The position numbers and the translations under genes are program-made. DNA of 36,101 bases from Chloroflexota bacterium (GTDB lineage Bacteria > Chloroflexota > Anaerolineae > Aggregatilineales > Phototrophicaceae): the NCBI GenBank assembly GCA_026707665.1, contig JAPOWK010000047.1, forward strand, positions 1 through 36,101. Direction: 5' to 3'. Positions 1 to 32,222 of this stretch are shown here, piece by piece; positions within the stretch are counted from its first letter, which is position 1; every line of letters begins with the position of its first letter. The notes beneath the pieces are model-generated. The model saw nothing but the letters and a program-made list of their open reading frames with translations. It made no database searches and was not told the origin of the DNA.

Positions 1-1940
1 GTATTCATCTGGGCGCGGCTCTCGCATTGGAAGACGCCGAAGGTCTTGGCTTCGGTGATCATCTGATAGACGCGCGGGTCATCGAAGGGGATGCTTTCGG
101 CATCAATGCCCACCCGCTCGACCATTTCGCTGATCGCCGCCAGCATGCGCAAGCCCAGCACATCAATCTTGATGATGCCGGCGTCTTCCAGCGCTTCCTT
201 GTCCCATTGCACCACGGTGCGGTCGGGCATTGCCGCCGGCTCGGTGGGCAAGCGGCGCGAGAGCGGCACATCGGAGATGATCTCGCCGCCGTTGTGGATG
301 CCGATATGCCGCACATTGCCCAGCAGCTGCTCACAGATATCAAAGAAGAGTCCCAGATGCGCCGGCGTATTTTCGCCGCGCTCTTCCCAATGATCGCGCA
401 AGATTGGGTGCATGGCCGGCGCAAAGCCCCAGGCTTTCGCCACATCGCGGATGACGCTGCGGTGGCGGTAGGTGACGAAGGTGCACGCCATCGCCGCGTG
501 CGTCCGTCCGTATTTCTGATAGAGGTACTGAATGACCTCCTCGCGCGTCTCGGCGTCGAAGTCCATATCAATATCGGGCATCATCTGCCGCTCTTCCGAC
601 AAGAAGCGCTCGAAGACAAGCCGGTGCTCGATCGGGTCGATCGGCGCGATCTTCAGCAGGTAGGCGACTACTGAATTAGCCGCCGAGCCGCGCCCCTGGC
701 AGCGAATGCCGCGCTCCCAGGCGAAATGCACAATATCCCATACCACCAGAAAATAATTGGCCAGCCCGGTCGTTTCGATGATGTCCAATTCATGCCGCAG
801 GCGCTCTTCCATCTGCGGGCGATAACGATCCGAGCCGCGGCAGAGCGCCGTCAGAAAGGTCTGCGCGTCCATGCCCTCCGGCAGCGGATACTGCGGCAGC
901 GCCTGCAATTGGGAGGGCAGCTGATAATGGCAGGCTTCCGCGATGCGCAGCGTGTTGCTCAAGGCTCGCGGATAACGATGAAAGAGCGCCGCCATCTCCG
1001 CGGCCGGCTTCAAGTAGTGCTGCCCGTTGGGGAAGAGTTGCCCGCGCGCCTCGTTCAAGCTGCGGTTGTGGCGGATGGCGGCTACCACATCGCCCAAAGG
1101 TTTCTCCGCCGGCGTGGGATAGTGGACGTGGTTCGCCGCGACATAACCCAGCTTCAGCGATTCCGCCAGCTCGACCAAGGCAGCGATCCGCTGATCATCA
1201 TAGGGACGGCGGTGATGATGCAGCTCGATCCAAAAGCAGCCCGGGTCAAAGAGCGCCGCATATCGCTGCGCGGCCTCGCAGGCGGCGCGCATCCCCTCCG
1301 TTTCCAGCGCGCCTGCTATTTCGCCTTCGCGCCCGCCGGACAAGGCGATCAGCCCGTCAGTCCGCCCCTCCAACTGCTCGAAACGCAGCAGGCCTTCGCC
1401 CTTCGGCGCTTGATGCTGCGCCTGGGTGATCAACCAGCAGAGGTTCTCCCAGCCGGTTTCATCGGCGACAAGGAGGGTCAGGGCGTGATTACCCCTCCCC
1501 CCGGCGGTTTTCTTACCCCTCCCCAGCGAGCTAGGGAGGGGGGCTTTCTTACCATCCCTCCCCACTTCTGTGCCAACCCCTCCCCCCGGCCCCCTCCCCG
1601 TCTGTAGGGGCGAGACTTGTCTCGCCCTCCCGCGACCCCCAACCCCAGCCTTTAGCGCAGACTGTAGGGGCGACTTACCAAGTCGCCCGCCAGCCTCATC
1701 GTCAAGGGCTGCCAACTCGGATTCGATAGTCAGTTCAGCGCCAAGGATGGGCTGGAGGTCGAAGGCTTGAGCCGCCTTCTGGAAGCTGACTGCGCCGTAG
1801 ACATTGTTGTGGTCGGTCAGCGCCAGCCCGCGCATGCCCAGGTTGGCGGCGCCCGCGACGAGAGTTTCGGGCGGCGAGGTCCCGCGCAGCAGGCTGTAGG
1901 CGGAGTGGGCGTGGAGTTCGATGTAGGCGGGGGTGGTCAT
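1..1940 (-). CDS. dnaE2: Error-prone DNA polymerase III alpha subunit DnaE2 (N-terminal ~646 residues, cut by window edge)
   Basis: C-family polymerase for translesion synthesis, expected to work with ImuA and ImuB. I translated the minus strand from the ATG at 1940 and found the frame open to the window edge, so the C-terminal part is missing. The PHP domain begins with YIELHAHSAYSLL and LALTDHNNVYGAV. The palm has GRGSAANSVVAY, then PDIDMDFD (catalytic D456 and D458), then GIIKIDVLGLR (D593). FQCESRAQM lies at the edge. Residues about 74-151 are a Gly/Arg/Pro-rich insert encoded by intergenic-type repeats, between GAELTIE and HALTLLVADETGWENL, where relatives have only a few residues. It puts the catalytic aspartates about 55 residues later than in E. 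coli DnaE. The neighbouring imuA-imuB argues for DnaE2 rather than the replicative DnaE1. The 486-base gap to the preceding gene could hold its own promoter. Confidence 0.93.
   Translation of the reverse strand, partial: MTTPAYIELHAHSAYSLLRGTSPPETLVAGAANLGMRGLALTDHNNVYGAVSFQKAAQAFDLQPILGAELTIESELAALDDEAGGRLGKSPLQSALKAGVGGRGRARQVSPLQTGRGPGGGVGTEVGRDGKKAPLPSSLGRGKKTAGGRGNHALTLLVADETGWENLCWLITQAQHQAPKGEGLLRFEQLEGRTDGLIALSGGREGEIAGALETEGMRAACEAAQRYAALFDPGCFWIELHHHRRPYDDQRIAALVELAESLKLGYVAANHVHYPTPAEKPLGDVVAAIRHNRSLNEARGQLFPNGQHYLKPAAEMAALFHRYPRALSNTLRIAEACHYQLPSQLQALPQYPLPEGMDAQTFLTALCRGSDRYRPQMEERLRHELDIIETTGLANYFLVVWDIVHFAWERGIRCQGRGSAANSVVAYLLKIAPIDPIEHRLVFERFLSEERQMMPDIDMDFDAETREEVIQYLYQKYGRTHAAMACTFVTYRHRSVIRDVAKAWGFAPAMHPILRDHWEERGENTPAHLGLFFDICEQLLGNVRHIGIHNGGEIISDVPLSRRLPTEPAAMPDRTVVQWDKEALEDAGIIKIDVLGLRMLAAISEMVERVGIDAESIPFDDPRVYQMITEAKTFGVFQCESRAQMN
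1485..1721 (-). repeat. Repeat-derived in-frame insertion inside dnaE2
   Basis: About 235 bp inside the PHP-domain coding region consist of elements otherwise found between genes here. Two copies of the TGTAGGGGCG palindrome lie at 1603-1627 (arms GAGAC/GTCTC) and 1663-1689 (arms GACTT/AAGTC). A CCCCTCCC/GGGAGGGG hairpin lies at about 1516-1541. C-rich stretches between them match the spacers at 2160-2200 and 4751-4765. The reading frame stays open throughout and encodes roughly 78 low-complexity residues. Confidence 0.85.
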
Positions 1941-2426
1941 TTTTGTTCACCACAGAGGCACAGAGGGCACAGAGAAAACTTGCCATGGAATTGAAATTTT
2001 ATTGATAATCTTATTGATAGAGCGAAATATTTTTTGTCTCATAAAACGGTTTTTGTGATACACAATGGCAGGCGGAAGCGGCCTTGCCCACACAAGATTG
2101 AGACATTTCGGACGACTCACAGGGTCGTCCCCGTTTACGTTGCGAGCGGCGCACCCCATCCCCCGGCCCCTGTTCCCCCCTCGGTCCCCCCCGCTCAACG
2201 GGGGGCGGACTTCCAGCGAGCTAGGGAAGGGGAGCTTGACCTCGCGAGCACTGTATTCATCCCGTTCCTTGCCCACAACAGAACGCAATGTAATTTGCGT
2301 GGGCGGCGGGCGTTTCGGCGAAACGCCCCTACAGATTTCGCGTGGTGACGCATGTCGCCGCAAAGCGCTTTGTGTCCTTTGTGGTCAAAAATCTCTGCGT
2401 GCTCTGCGCCCTCTGTAGTTATATTT
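1941..2426. other. Gene-free spacer between the DUF6504 gene and dnaE2, rich in repeats
   Basis: No convincing gene. On the dnaE2 side is a CACAGAGG-type repeat (about 1949-1975), then an AT-rich stretch at 1986-2060 that could hold a minus-strand promoter, though no clear -35/-10 pair is visible. Next come a C-run/G-run hairpin (2186-2205), a TTCCAGCGAGCTAGGGAA element (about 2211-2228), a TGTAGGGGCG-type palindrome in reverse orientation (2308-2333, arms GTTTC/GAAAC) and another CACAGAGG-type repeat (about 2368-2420). Short open frames here are repeat-derived and show no family resemblance. Confidence 0.6.
2308..2333 (-). repeat. R1 palindrome (GGGCG...CGCCCCTACA)
   Basis: Stem arms GGGCGTTTC and GAAACGCCC around a short GGC loop, followed by CTACA, which is the TGTAG tail of the R1 family read from the other strand. 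The same arm sequence recurs at 7397-7422. Confidence 0.75.
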
Positions 2427-2675
2427 TCAGTCATAAACCCGCTGAATCCCCCAGTTGTCGGTCAGCAGATCGTGGTAAATCACCAGCGCCATGCCCCCCG
2501 CCAGCAGCTTGTAATAATCGCGGTAGACGCGCGCGCCCCACCAAATCACGTCCAATTGCCAGGAGAGCGCGATATGCTGAATGGGATGCCAGGCGTCTTT
2601 CCAACGGATGGCGCTCGGCAGTTCGTCGCGCGTCCGCACTTCCAGCGCGGCAGTCTCATCCGACAAGCGGCTCAT
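2427..2675 (-). CDS. DUF6504 family protein of the mutasome operon
   Basis: An 82-residue protein with the layout of the DUF6504 domain. It has a charged N-terminus, then DVIWWGARVYRDYYKLL, then a conserved ending (ALVIYHDLLTDNWGIQRVYD). In many bacteria this domain is a separate small gene, or is fused to ImuB or DnaE2, in damage-inducible cassettes; its molecular role is not established. Its ATG overlaps the imuB stop by four bases (ATGA), so it is translationally coupled and belongs to the same operon. Its position between imuB and dnaE2 supports a role in the mutasome. Recognition rests on motif memory only. Confidence 0.8.
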   Translation of the reverse strand: MSRLSDETAALEVRTRDELPSAIRWKDAWHPIQHIALSWQLDVIWWGARVYRDYYKLLAGGMALVIYHDLLTDNWGIQRVYD

Positions 2676-3832
2676 ACGCCCAGCGCCTCGCTTTCAAATT
2701 GCAGCGCCGGCGGAAAATGGCGCGGCACATCGGTCAAGCTCAATTGGTAGACCGTCTCATGAAAGCGCCGCCGCCAGGCATCGACCGCAGCCCGCAGCGG
2801 ACGCCCTTCGCGCGGGGCATCAAAGAGCGATAGCTGCTGTGGCTGCAGCGCCGCCAATTCGCTGAGCTGCAAGCGCAGTTCAATGATGCCCGTGCGGACC
2901 AGCAGCTTTTCCAGCAGAGGGGGCAACTGTTTCTCAAACTGCGCGAGCCCCCGCAGCGGCGCGCTCGGCCGCAGATGCAGTTCATGCCGTTGCCGGTTTT
3001 CATCCTCCAGCAGCAGAACCAGCCGCCCGGCTTCCCGCCCCCCCAATTGATCCAGCAGCGGGGAGGCCAGGCGCAGGCAAGCGGCCAGCAGGCTCTCGCG
3101 ATCGGCGATGGGCTCGTCAAAAGACAGCGAGCCCGTCAAGACTGGCGGCGGTTGATGGGCTTGCAGCGGGCGCGTGTCGATACCCAGCGCCAGATCATGA
3201 CAAAAGCAGCCATGCCGCTCCCATTGCTCGAAGACGGCTGCCCGCGAAAGCGCCGTGAAATCACCGATGCGGCGGATGCCCATCATCGGTAGCCGGCGTT
3301 GCATATCAGCGTTCAAGGGCAGCAGCGCCGCCGGAAATGGCGCCAGAAAAGCCGCTTCTTCGCCCGGCGCCACCTGGCAATGATCGGCGCCGCCCGCTCC
3401 AGCGACTTGCGCCACGAATTTGCCGCTGCCCGTGCCTATCGTGACCTTGCCACCCAGCAGGCATTCAATTCGCCAGCGCAGGATCTCAAGCTCGCGCGGA
3501 TGATCGCTGACCACAATCCACCAAGCCCGCCCGGGCTGATAACCGGGCTCCACCCGATCGATATGCTGCGCCAGGTCGGCCGTCACTTCGGCGAAGAGGC
3601 GGCGATAGACTTCGTCGCGCGCCGGCAAGACAGCGGCATTGGGGCAGAGCAACTCGGCTTGCTTGCGGCTGTCGCCCGTACGGACACCGGCGTCACGCGC
3701 CAAGGCATCGGTCGCCAGCACTTTGAGGTGGTGTTCGCCGCAGAGCAAAATCAGCGGTCGCTCGCCCAGCCCCGGCTGCTGCGAGCGCTCGATGGTCGCC
3801 GCCAAATCCTGAATCACCAGCGCGCTGAACAT
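2672..3832 (-). CDS. imuB: ImuB, catalytically inactive Y-family polymerase-like mutasome adaptor
   Basis: A 386-residue Y-family polymerase relative that in other bacteria links ImuA and DnaE2 to the sliding clamp. Palm, thumb and little-finger regions are recognisable, but polymerase residues are missing. The first metal-binding segment, normally like DMDxFFAxVE, reads IQDLAATIER. The SIDE(A) segment is replaced by PGYQPGRAWWIVV. Loss of these carboxylates is the hallmark of ImuB as opposed to DinB. Near the C-terminus QLSLFD (about residues 333-338) is a textbook beta-clamp binding motif. Its start overlaps the 3' end of imuA by 19 bases, and its stop overlaps the DUF6504 gene by four, so the three genes are tightly coupled. 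Confidence 0.9.
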   Translation of the reverse strand: MFSALVIQDLAATIERSQQPGLGERPLILLCGEHHLKVLATDALARDAGVRTGDSRKQAELLCPNAAVLPARDEVYRRLFAEVTADLAQHIDRVEPGYQPGRAWWIVVSDHPRELEILRWRIECLLGGKVTIGTGSGKFVAQVAGAGGADHCQVAPGEEAAFLAPFPAALLPLNADMQRRLPMMGIRRIGDFTALSRAAVFEQWERHGCFCHDLALGIDTRPLQAHQPPPVLTGSLSFDEPIADRESLLAACLRLASPLLDQLGGREAGRLVLLLEDENRQRHELHLRPSAPLRGLAQFEKQLPPLLEKLLVRTGIIELRLQLSELAALQPQQLSLFDAPREGRPLRAAVDAWRRRFHETVYQLSLTDVPRHFPPALQFESEALGV

Positions 3833-4479
3833 GTTTCCTCCCGCGGGATGGCGAAGGCCAGCTCACGCTGCCGAAATGGCAGAAAGGGGTGCGCGGTCAA
3901 GCGCAATTCGCTGCGGAAGCCAATGACATCGCCCCGTTCCATTTGCCAGGCGCGCCGCCGGCAAGCCAGCGCCACTTGCATCTGTGGCAGCGCCCCCGGC
4001 GATAAAGCCAGCAGGGTCAGGGGCGCGTCACGCAGAATCGCTTTCAACTGGGCGAGCGGCAAGGCGGCCGGCTGATCGACCGCCACCAGACAGGGGAGCC
4101 GCTGCTGCGCCAGGCTGCGGATCAGAAACAGCGCGTGTTGCAGCGAGGTCCGGCGCAAGAGCAGCAAGCGCTCGATCTCAATCCCGGCGAGAGCGGCGTT
4201 GGGCGGATCAAACAGCCCGCCCATATCCAGGTAGACAACCGGAAGCGCCTGCTCTTGCGCGCTGGCGACAGCAGCATAAAGCAAGCTGGTCGCGCCTGAT
4301 GTTGGCTGCCCGCTGATGCCATGCGCCGCGCCGCGCAACAAGCCGCCTTCCAGCAGCTCATCAACCGCCGCGATGCCGGTGCTCAAGGTCTCGCGGATGG
4401 ATACCAGCTCGGCCGCGCGCCGCAGCGTCTGATAACCGAAGCGCTGCTGAATATCCGCCACCAGTGATTCAACTGACAC
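3814..4479 (-). CDS. imuA: ImuA-like RecA-fold mutasome protein
   Basis: RecA/SulA-like ATPase-fold protein, first gene of the mutasome operon. LSTGIAAVDELLEGGLLRGAAHGISG matches the start of the RecA core seen in ImuA. The following P-loop reads GQPTSGATS, with Ala where a functional Walker A has Lys, so ATP hydrolysis may be weak or absent. ALPVVYLDMGG and LPCLVAVDQP fit the central strands. I place the start at the GTG at 4479 (221 residues), preceded by AGGAAAGGTGGGGAG. The longest frame from 4590 would run through the promoter and LexA-type operator at 4522-4555, so that start is unlikely. A GTG at 4491 is an alternative. Confidence 0.85.
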   Translation of the reverse strand: MSVESLVADIQQRFGYQTLRRAAELVSIRETLSTGIAAVDELLEGGLLRGAAHGISGQPTSGATSLLYAAVASAQEQALPVVYLDMGGLFDPPNAALAGIEIERLLLLRRTSLQHALFLIRSLAQQRLPCLVAVDQPAALPLAQLKAILRDAPLTLLALSPGALPQMQVALACRRRAWQMERGDVIGFRSELRLTAHPFLPFRQRELAFAIPREETCSARW

Positions 4480-4521
4480 TTGTCTCCCCACCTTTCCTCG
4501 CAGATAACGTGTAGAGGCAGT

Positions 4522-4555
4522 ATAGAACATTTGTACTATGTGGTCAAGACTTGGG
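4522..4555 (-). promoter_or_regulatory. SOS promoter with LexA-type operator in the spacer, driving imuA-imuB-DUF6504-dnaE2
   Basis: Read on the minus strand: TTGACC, a 17-base spacer, then TATACT, a near-consensus sigma-70 promoter. The spacer is occupied by TAGTACAAATGTTCTA, which is 4523-4538 read in reverse and an imperfect palindrome with matching TAGnACA half-sites. It fits the published cyanobacterial-type LexA consensus (RGTACNNNDGTWCB) and is close to the Gram-positive GAAC-N4-GTTC box. The promoter lies about 45 bases upstream of the proposed imuA GTG. LexA bound here would cover the promoter. Confidence 0.75.
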
Positions 4556-4764
4556 GTCGCGTAGACACCGACCGTCGGTCGCGCTGACACTGACCGCCAA
4601 CACAGAGGGTAAGCTTACCCACCGAGGTCACCGAGTTAATTTGAGATCACCGAGGGTTATTGAACACAGAGCGCGCAGAGACGGGCGAGCCAATGGGTCG
4701 CCCCTACAAGGCTTGTCCGGTACTGTGGAAAGCCGGTTTTCCCTACGTCTTACCCCATCCCCGG

Positions 4765-24535: not shown

Positions 24536-24775
24536 TACTCGGCCTCTCCTTTGCGCCGCCCCACTTTACCAACTTGTAGGGGCGAGCCACCGGCTCGCCC
24601 GTACACACACCTAAAAAGCGGCGTGTCGCCCGCCTTTCTAAGGCCTCTCATTCCACCTCTCCCTTGCGTCGGCCAGCCTCAACATTCGACACGGGCGGCT
24701 TGCTGTAGGGGCGACTCTGTGAGTCGCCCGCTTCATACAAGCGCATCACTCCACCTCTCCCTTGCGCCGTCCAGA
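24534..24775. repeat. Palindrome-rich spacer with three copies of a permease 3' end
   Basis: Read on the minus strand, GRRKGEVE-stop is encoded at the true 3' end of the upstream permease gene (24746-24772), again at 24648-24674 (GRRKGEVE-stop, three base differences), and again at 24536-24562 ([12 protein letters not shown], more diverged). R1 palindromes lie between copies: 24704-24730 (arms GACTC/GAGTC) and 24575-24600 (arms GAGCC/GGCTC). The copies start 98 and 112 bases apart, giving a degenerate tandem array. The last copy supplies the Shine-Dalgarno for the next gene. Confidence 0.7.
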
Positions 24776-27477: not shown

Positions 27478-27524
27478 CCACTCGCCCGCGTGATCGCATC
27501 GCCCATTGAATTGATGATGATATC
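27478..27524 (-). repeat. Left direct repeat of the restriction cassette (displaced copy of aminotransferase 3' end)
   Basis: 47 bp, 45 identical to 30609-30655. Read on the minus strand it encodes DIIINSMGDAITRASG and then a stop, against DIIINTMGDAITRASG-stop at the true gene end. Similarity stops abruptly on both sides. It is a leftover or imported copy of the last codons of the aminotransferase gene, in the same orientation and about 3.13 kb from the real end. Confidence 0.9.
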
Positions 27525-30604: not shown

Positions 30605-31948
30605 TTAGCCACTCGCCCGCGTGATCGCATCGCCCATCGTATTGATGATGATATCGACCTCGTCGGCGCTGATGCAGAGCGGCGGGGCAAAGGCAATCGC
30701 GGAACCAATCGGGCGCGCTCGCAAGCCCATTTCCAGCGCCGCGTCGCTGATCTTCTCCGCCGTGTCCGGGTCGCCTTCGCGGCTCTCCTTGCTCTTGACC
30801 ACGTCAATCCCCGCCATCAAGCCCAGCCCGCGCGCGTTGTCGATATGGGGGAATTCATCGACCAGCGCCTCCAAGCCCTTCAGCAGCCGCTCACCCATGA
30901 CGCGGCTGTTCTCCAGCAAGCCATCGCGCTCGATGATCTCGATATTGGCGAGGCCGACGGCGCAGGCGGTCGCGTGCCCGGAATAGGTGTAGCCGTGCAT
31001 CCAGCTTTGATCTTCCGGCGCGCTATTGATCACATCGCGGATTGCATCGGTCACCTGAATGCCACCCAGCGGCATATACCCGCTCGTCACGCCTTTGGCG
31101 AATTGCATGATATCGGGGTTGATGCCAAAGGCGTCGCAGCCGAACCAATTGCCGGTGCGCCCAAAGCCGCAAATCACCTCATCGGCGATGAACAAGACCT
31201 CATACTTCTTGCAGATCGCCTGTACCCGATCGAAGTAGCCGTCATCGGCAATCATGACGCCGCCAGCGCCTTGAATCGGCTCGCTGATGAAAGCGGCCAC
31301 CGTATCCGGCCCCTCGCGCAAAATCGCCTCTTCCAATTCGCGCGCCGCTGCCTGCGCGGCAGTTTCGCCGTCTCGCAACTCGCCCTCATAGCGATAGGGA
31401 TTCGGATTCTCGACATGGATGAAGCCATCCAGAACGCCGCCGAACATGGTGTGAAACTTGCTCATGCCAGTGGCGCTCGTAGCCGCCAGCGTCATCCCGT
31501 GGTAGCCGATCAAGCGCGATATAATCTTGGTCTTCTTCACCTTGCCCAGCTGATACCAATAGAAGCGCGCCGTCTTTATTGACGTGTCAGTGGATTCGGA
31601 ACCGCCGGATGTGAAGTTGGTGAAGTTCATATTGGGCCGGAAGAAGCCGGCCAGCTTGTCCGCCAATTGCGCCGATGGCGGATTGGTCATGCCAGCGAAG
31701 CCGGAACTGTAGGCGATATCGAGCATCTGCTCATAAGCCACCTGCGCCAGCTCGCGGTTGCCGTAGCCGATATTTACGTTCCATAAGCTGGCCATCGAAT
31801 CAAGGATTCTGCGGCCGTCGGTTGTATACAGCCACACGCCGTCGCCCTTCTCGACCATCACGGCCTTCTCAGTCCGCGAAGGATGGTACATGGGATGTAA
31901 TTGCCGCTCGTCTTGCTGGACCAGCGCCGCGTAATCATTTGCGATCAT
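30605..31948 (-). CDS. Class III (omega-amino acid-pyruvate type) aminotransferase
   Basis: A 447-residue PLP-dependent aminotransferase moving an amino group from an omega-amino acid, diamine or taurine-like donor to a keto acid. GVWLYTTDGRRILDSMASLWNVNIGYG, NFTSGGSESTDTSIKTARFYW, RLIGYHGMTLAATSATG, LFIADEVICGFGRTGNWFGCDAFG (PLP Asp) and MQFAKGVTSGYMPLGGI (Schiff-base Lys) are all intact. I start at ATG 31948, nine bases after AAGAG; the in-frame TTG at 31957 abuts that site. The last 47 bp, ending GDAITRASG, are repeated at 27478, so the restriction cassette lies directly at its 3' end. The substrate is not resolved. Confidence 0.9.
   Translation of the reverse strand: MIANDYAALVQQDERQLHPMYHPSRTEKAVMVEKGDGVWLYTTDGRRILDSMASLWNVNIGYGNRELAQVAYEQMLDIAYSSGFAGMTNPPSAQLADKLAGFFRPNMNFTNFTSGGSESTDTSIKTARFYWYQLGKVKKTKIISRLIGYHGMTLAATSATGMSKFHTMFGGVLDGFIHVENPNPYRYEGELRDGETAAQAAARELEEAILREGPDTVAAFISEPIQGAGGVMIADDGYFDRVQAICKKYEVLFIADEVICGFGRTGNWFGCDAFGINPDIMQFAKGVTSGYMPLGGIQVTDAIRDVINSAPEDQSWMHGYTYSGHATACAVGLANIEIIERDGLLENSRVMGERLLKGLEALVDEFPHIDNARGLGLMAGIDVVKSKESREGDPDTAEKISDAALEMGLRARPIGSAIAFAPPLCISADEVDIIINTMGDAITRASG
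30609..30655 (-). repeat. Right direct repeat of the restriction cassette (aminotransferase 3' end)
   Basis: 47 bp within the end of the aminotransferase gene, the partner of 27478-27524 with two mismatches. The two changes alter one codon (Thr/Ser), so both copies still encode a functional-looking tail. Confidence 0.9.
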
Positions 31949-32086
31949 GCTGTTCAACTCTTTTCTACGTATACGGGCATGATGTTAGCATAACTTACAA
32001 TCGGCCGATTTTCGACTGGAATGCGGTTTAGGATCGGCGGCAAAATCAGCATAGCAACCGATTAATCGGTCACAGCGCATCATTGA

Positions 32087-32163
32087 TGTAGGGGCGACTT
32101 ATCAAGTCGCCCGCTTTACTTGGGCCTTTTCTCCAACGGGCGACCTGGTAGGTCGCCCCTACA
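32087..32163. repeat. Pair of inward-facing R1 palindromes
   Basis: Forward copy at 32087-32113 (arms GACTT/AAGTC, the same as a copy inside dnaE2) and reverse copy at 32138-32163 (arms GACCT/AGGTC). They lie in the spacer between the aminotransferase and glycosyltransferase genes, so the TGTAG tails bracket the pair. Nothing else is seen in this 274-base gap. Confidence 0.75.
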
Positions 32164-32222
32164 TGATCACATTTTTCGCGGCTATCGGCGCATAATAGTC
32201 GATGAGGCGATTGCCCGGCGGA

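Follow-up and report, generated by a model that had tools for sequence, protein, structure and literature searches.

The stretch of DNA analysed here (the window) is one whole contig of 36,101 nt, JAPOWK010000047.1 (contig C107 of the source genome, G000), from an uncultured Chloroflexota bacterium; it opens inside dnaE2, a gene for an error-prone DNA polymerase whose PHP domain carries a loop expanded in frame by two palindromes of one type (R1) and a C-rich hairpin (R2). In the labels used below, G stands for genomes, C for contigs of G000, L for loci and P for DnaE2-like proteins. The best NCBIfam model for the product of the gene was NF004225, error-prone DNA polymerase (545.6 bits over 646 aa), a score under the full-length cut-off of 939 for a gene that is incomplete at the contig end. 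The identification as DnaE2 draws on this profile match and on a mutasome neighborhood, with Y-family-like and RecA-like genes upstream; the Pfam PHP domain covers residues 8-243. The repeats are marked R1 and R2 in the following list, in which R1 copies are GTAG-tagged repetitive extragenic palindromes (REPs).

3..1940, minus strand: dnaE2-type polymerase gene, an open reading frame (ORF) of 646 aa that lacks its C-terminus because the contig ends there
1482..1727, minus strand: PHP loop in its expanded form, spanning residues 72-153 and 82 aa long; the empty allele L032 has 6 aa
1664..1688, plus strand: R1 copy 1; GTAG on the plus strand, hence CTAC at the 3' end when followed in gene sense; peptide GGRLGKSPLQ
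1604..1627, plus strand: R1 copy 2, second stem subtype; read as GRARQVSPLQ
1516..1541, plus strand: R2, C-rich hairpin without a GTAG tag; read as APLPSSLGRG

Across 1485-1721 the frame of the gene is the only one of the six without stops, the others holding 1 to 7. The GAE-to-LVA distance is 279 nt in the window, 204 nt in L030, 219 nt in L031 and 51 nt in L032, as also in L036 and L037; relative to L032, the gain is thus 228 nt, or 76 codons. An earlier reading of the window, made from the sequence only, had put the gain at about 78 residues between conserved PHP segments; the size is thereby revised, while the location between two PHP strands held. The alignment with relatives that it proposed did yield an empty allele in a close relative, since L032, with its 6-aa loop, is 95% identical to the window over the best segment. 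L030, from a separate record, has both R1 places and the linker in common with the window, in frame; its first R1 (3253-3277) is of another stem subtype than that at 1664-1688, with matching changes in both arms, as would arise from compensation between the arms or from substitution by a different copy from the genome.

The columns of D456, D458 and D593, which we take to be the polymerase catalytic positions, are invariant among 52 aligned sequences, bearing out the earlier statement that the catalytic aspartates downstream are intact. Two positions that are presumably PHP metal ligands are R19 and A153 in this protein; the PHP metal site is therefore not canonical, and the polymerase site is intact. 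In the predicted structural model, strands 63-72 and 152-158 flank the loop, and the per-residue confidence (pLDDT) falls below 50 at residues 85-95 and 99-147. The insert is thus predicted to be disordered.

R1 and R2 as dispersed repeats

Matches to the R1 pattern, GTAGGGGCG-N8..14-CGCCC, numbered 246 + 190 in G000, compared with 2 + 0 for a reversed-pattern control; the total of 436, which includes some elements matching on both strands, excludes chance when set against 2. R1 was frequent in 32 of 34 same-genus genomes, with few copies in G015 and G033. The positions of the repeats relative to genes were examined in a sample of 1,524,989 of the 4,668,027 bases, a nonrandom choice of long contigs and contigs with known matches, in which 1,124 ORFs, called by script without curated annotation, cover 83.6%. 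The 142 R1 sites in the sample comprised 121 intergenic sites, 19 lying at most 120 nt from the end of an ORF and 2 deeper; the 58 R2 sites comprised 53 intergenic sites, 4 near ORF ends and 1 deeper. All three deep sites are those of the window dnaE2, so that the search for further copies inside genes, which the sequence-only reading had called for, found none outside dnaE2 in the sampled third of the genome, where this gene is exceptional as a deep carrier of R1 and R2.

R1 is a REP element: both dnaE2 copies have the GTAG tag and the palindrome, the copies are dispersed and mostly intergenic, 48 of the 142 sampled copies have another at most 150 bp away, and the type is associated with genes resembling REP-associated tyrosine transposases (RAYTs). 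The stem subtype of the second dnaE2 copy was found elsewhere in G000 too. Near matches to the R2 core numbered 36 in the sample, including the dnaE2 copy itself, and 32 of them were intergenic; the 14 copies inspected had a C-rich stem, mostly a G-rich tail, and no GTAG tag. R2 is therefore not classed with the GTAG superfamily of REPs and is a separate, untagged element.

NCBIfam model NF047646 identified three RAYT-like loci in G000 (Pfam PF01797 gave 1), as follows.

C77:10863-11489: RAYT-like gene L122, between inverted identical GTAG palindromes GTAGGGGCGAGGCGGTGACTCGCCC
C101:5945-6630: RAYT-like gene L144, between inverted identical GTAG palindromes GTAGGGGCGACCCATTGGGTCGCCC
C82:18764-19452: RAYT-like gene L137, between inverted identical GTAG palindromes GTAGGGGCTTGCCTTGGCAAGCCC

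Inverted GTAG pairs thus flank all three loci, and two of the three pairs fit the R1 pattern; the stem of GTAGGGGCTTGCCTTGGCAAGCCC lies outside it, and only those two copies were found. This is the anatomy of the REPtron, a RAYT between inverted REPs, as described in Di Nocera et al. 2013 (PMC3733652) and Corneloup et al. 2021 (PMC8266576). The pair of each RAYT-like gene is of a different stem subtype, and it is possible that transposase and REP stem covary within one genome.

The PHP loop in relatives and in the replicative paralogue

The best 120 of 6,529 DnaE2-like proteins, together with that of the window, were surveyed. The clade of the window was taken as 33 rows (listed under P0001-P0031, P0035 and P0106, with the window); it excludes P0032-P0034, which are close to it but truncated at the N-terminus. 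In the alignment, 26 of the 33 rows have at least 12 residues more than P0026 at the PHP loop; only two other places have at least 12 extra residues, each in one clade row and near the C-terminus. Loop length could be read by pattern in 31 clade rows (20 of the 121 survey rows were missed by this method) and was 23-82 residues in 25, eight of which are the near-identical P0014-P0021, and 6-13 residues in 6. No loop exceeded 16 residues among the rows read outside the clade. Most of the clade loops combine R1-type (GGRLxKSPLQ) with R2-type (APLPxxxGRGxGGRG) peptides, and most lineages differ from one another; the 12 R1-type peptides found, in 8 proteins, all have one orientation and frame.

Within the genus, DnaE2 was found in 10 of 34 genomes (E <= 1e-60): the insert was read through in G000, G014 and G027, the contig ends within it in G002, G011 and G019, and the loop is short in G017, G029, G032 and G033. 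In a quick tree, from which 8 of 41 rows were dropped (the near-duplicates P0015-P0019 and P0021, the truncated P0028 and the outgroup P0046) and in which 12 of 30 forks are weak, the empty L032 is sister to the group of the window and nested inside insert-bearing lineages (support 90 and 87). This position suggests that inserts have been lost or replaced as well as gained. The tree required four changes of state with P0035 coded as empty, and the likely number is three, as the alignment shows extra residues in P0035.

When 228-nt intergenic segments bearing these elements were examined, a given frame was open in 661 of 6,450 trials (10.2%), so that chance would not be expected to keep the frame open in lineage after lineage. 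An untouched control is provided by the replicative DnaE, a paralogue that lacks the insert: a 17-residue loop was present at the homologous place in all 21 same-genus genomes searched, and among all 30 loci, 27 had 17 residues, one had 16, one had 19 and one was not read.

A repeat-like insert was also found in the same PHP loop of a distant Chloroflexota DnaE2, L045. Ten of its 12 relatives were readable; five of these have 7-20 residues (P0126-P0129 and P0137), and five have repeat-like loops (P0122, 23 aa; P0124, 39 aa; P0178, 41 aa; P0125, 111 aa; P0123, 135 aa), those of P0123 and P0125 with about three tandem PHPNPLPRGEGVRSPAPLAPGGRGARGEG-type units, each a palindrome-like peptide of roughly 35-45 residues. 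In another distant relative, L044 (3001-3500), the translated frame meets stops after about 150 residues, likely through a frameshift or assembly error outside the loop.

Upstream of dnaE2 in the window lie the following features.

2213..2232, plus strand: R2-type copy in the upstream spacer
2306..2337, minus strand: R1 copy in the same spacer, an ordinary intergenic location
2427..2675, minus strand: 82-aa ORF, with dnaE2 on one side and the Y-family-like gene on the other; Pfam gave no match
2672..3832, minus strand: Y-family polymerase-like gene (Pfam IMS), putative ImuB by position
3814..4590, minus strand: RecA-like gene, putative ImuA by position; weak NF033429 match (22.8 bits, cut-off 150)

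Judged from gene order, the Y-family-like and RecA-like genes appear to stand where ImuB and ImuA would lie in a mutasome cassette, and the 82-aa ORF is a possible further member. Elsewhere in the window, closely spaced R1 copies, resembling bacterial interspersed mosaic elements (BIMEs), lie at 32086-32164 (an inverted pair 23 nt apart) and 24573-24733, and two 47-nt stretches, 27478-27524 and 30609-30655, are 96% identical and 3.1 kb apart.

Weighing of the explanations

In the explanation that we consider probable, the two GTAG REPs, which lie with the C-rich hairpin in frame in one DnaE2 PHP loop, were likely placed there by RAYTs, and the prediction is that the whole is translated into a surface loop that is disordered and tolerated. 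RAYTs would have moved R1 into dnaE2; selection would discard insertions that are out of frame or cause misfolding, and the loop would keep the remainder, in a protein that is presumably made and works. Overall, the observation in the sequence-only reading was confirmed, and its interpretation was partly supported.

Several points weigh against this explanation. The earlier account described about 235 bp of open frame in which two R1 copies, R2 and the linker were all shared with spacers; the frame and the palindromes stand, but three linker pieces occur only once in the third of the genome that was sampled, so the insert is not wholly dispersed repeat. The RAYT-like genes score under the NF047646 cut-off in all 34 genomes searched, and none of the pairs flanking the three in G000 is of an R1 subtype present in dnaE2. 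The survey was built on predicted proteins and is thereby biased to open frames; translation of the insert is predicted from the reading frame. The ratio of nonsynonymous to synonymous substitution rates (dN/dS) against L030 is 0.24 over 42 shared codons of the insert, from about 8 changes, too small a base to lean on. In the second lineage, the L045 insert found no match besides itself in its own genome, so that its mobile origin would follow from the peptide pattern alone; P0124, P0125 and P0126 have a second place with repeat-like inserts, and in the more distantly related P0134-P0136 inserts occur at several places, showing that growth in the L045 lineage is not confined to the PHP loop.

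A comparison with PolC (9qpc) bears on why this loop is used. Query residues 7-57 aligned with 363-413 and residues 139-438 with 628-935. Between these two aligned parts, in a gap that seems to correspond to the DnaE2 loop, PolC has a large insertion; the N-terminal piece matched weakly (E 0.0067). According to PMC3919608, the PHP domain of PolC holds a folded exonuclease, and the surface with which the domain binds epsilon lacks conservation in DnaE2. Because of this lack of conservation, and because the PolC exonuclease seems to lie in the same gap, the loop may be regarded as an insertion-tolerant port of C-family polymerases, filled in PolC by a folded exonuclease and here by predicted-disordered, repeat-derived sequence. 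A bolder form of this idea, in which the loop is a reusable entry port where PolC took its proofreading exonuclease and where DnaE2 proteins of at least two Chloroflexota lineages keep adding mobile palindromes that change polymerase function, seems doubtful to us; if true, a transposable-element family would be supplying a polymerase that makes mutations with novel protein sequence that changes fast.

It is rather improbable that the insertions are adaptive, with the palindromes altering DnaE2 activity or contacts and so tuning induced mutagenesis. Reuse of the same loop within the clade, the repeat-like inserts there in a second lineage, and the standing of dnaE2 as the only gene with deep copies in the third of the genome that was sampled would all fit such a role; however, content and length vary freely among close relatives, L032 is almost empty despite being sister to the group of the window, and the model predicts no fold for the loop. 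A nonessential gene with a free loop would explain the recurrence without any benefit; DnaE2 was found in only 10 of 34 same-genus genomes.

Patchy occurrence in the genus and the noncanonical PHP positions 19 and 153 might point instead to a pseudogene in decay, where selection against insertions has ceased. We judge this very unlikely, since dN/dS against L030 is 0.14 before the insert and 0.13 over the 494 codons after it, the three aspartates are invariant, and frames are open in the alleles read through; dnaE2 is under constraint.

That intron or intein splicing or a translational bypass removes the segment, so that the palindromes never appear in protein, is scarcely credible: the insert is bounded and able to form hairpins, but it is in frame without stops and needs no removal, and the segments of relatives are unlike it in sequence and length and in frame in the alleles read through. 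The suggestion that it is spliced out as RNA also loses ground, since the only two Rfam matches were far under their gathering scores and judged to be chance, and the insert folds no better than shuffled sequences (z = 0.19). Pfam gave no match within it and so no intein splicing domain, nor do homologues carry an unrelated conserved domain at this position, which had been named as an observation that would overturn the earlier interpretation: their loops are short, repeat-derived or otherwise of low complexity (P0134 and P0135), and no shared domain was seen. A protein search with residues 73-152 alone returned P0002 only and is uninformative on such peptides in other families. Equally hard to credit is an error of assembly or binning that joined an intergenic repeat into dnaE2; contigs do end inside the insert in three genomes, as repeats break assemblies, but the in-frame arrangement recurs in L030, a false join would seldom be in frame, and loops of the same kind lie on chromosome-sized contigs (2.9-5.1 Mb for P0006-P0009 and P0020).

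Relation to known repeats and meaning

In favoring REPs placed by RAYTs, we depart from the earlier reading in two respects. It had taken Rickettsia palindromic elements (RPEs) as the precedent and had stated that no such case was known in a mutasome polymerase. RPEs are alike in that they are palindromes in frame in genes whose proteins are likely functional; the repeats of R. conorii, one of which lies in a DnaE gene, are CGTC-tagged according to PMC3733652, whereas the dnaE2 palindromes carry GTAG and R1 is accompanied by RAYT-like genes. The GTAG REP/RAYT system fits better. As described in PMC3733652 (whose Table 1 defines the GTAG REP by GTAG at one end of a short palindrome with a stem of 5-13 bp and a loop of 2-20) and PMC8266576, its REPs share with R1 the terminal GTAG, the short stem with a small loop, and a dispersed, mostly intergenic and often paired occurrence; RAYT-like genes between inverted copies and REPs in repair genes, DnaE2 included, are further likenesses. 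What differs here is that one loop of one gene is used clade-wide with changing content, and that the RAYT-like genes fall under the NCBIfam cut-off.

PMC3733652 also reports GTAG repeats in Chloroflexi and names error-prone polymerases from DnaE2 genes among REP-tagged proteins, which cuts back the claim of novelty. It places REPs at differing sites in genes that belong to one functional category, with recB of two Xanthomonas species as the exception, and its authors speculated that REP tagging of repair genes is nonrandom and may tune mutagenesis. Our literature search found no account of repeats in this loop, a statement limited by the fact that the species and places of the DnaE2 cases of PMC3733652 sit in its supplement and were not compared. 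What the present analysis adds is that insertions recur in one loop within a clade and that the replicative paralogue serves as a control; it also adds the REPtrons of G000, the likely second lineage and the coincidence with PolC.

Whereas the REPs in repair genes described in 2013 were scattered cases, the Chloroflexota DnaE2 proteins offer a natural series, clade-wide and confined to the same loop of a single gene, with alleles ranging from empty to 82 residues and, in the second lineage, up to 135 residues. Together with the replicative paralogue as control, this series makes the choice between tolerated junk and a tuned mutator directly testable. The loop would be a clean case of noncoding mobile elements turning into protein, as predicted from the reading frame, and it directs attention to the gap in which PolC apparently acquired its exonuclease.
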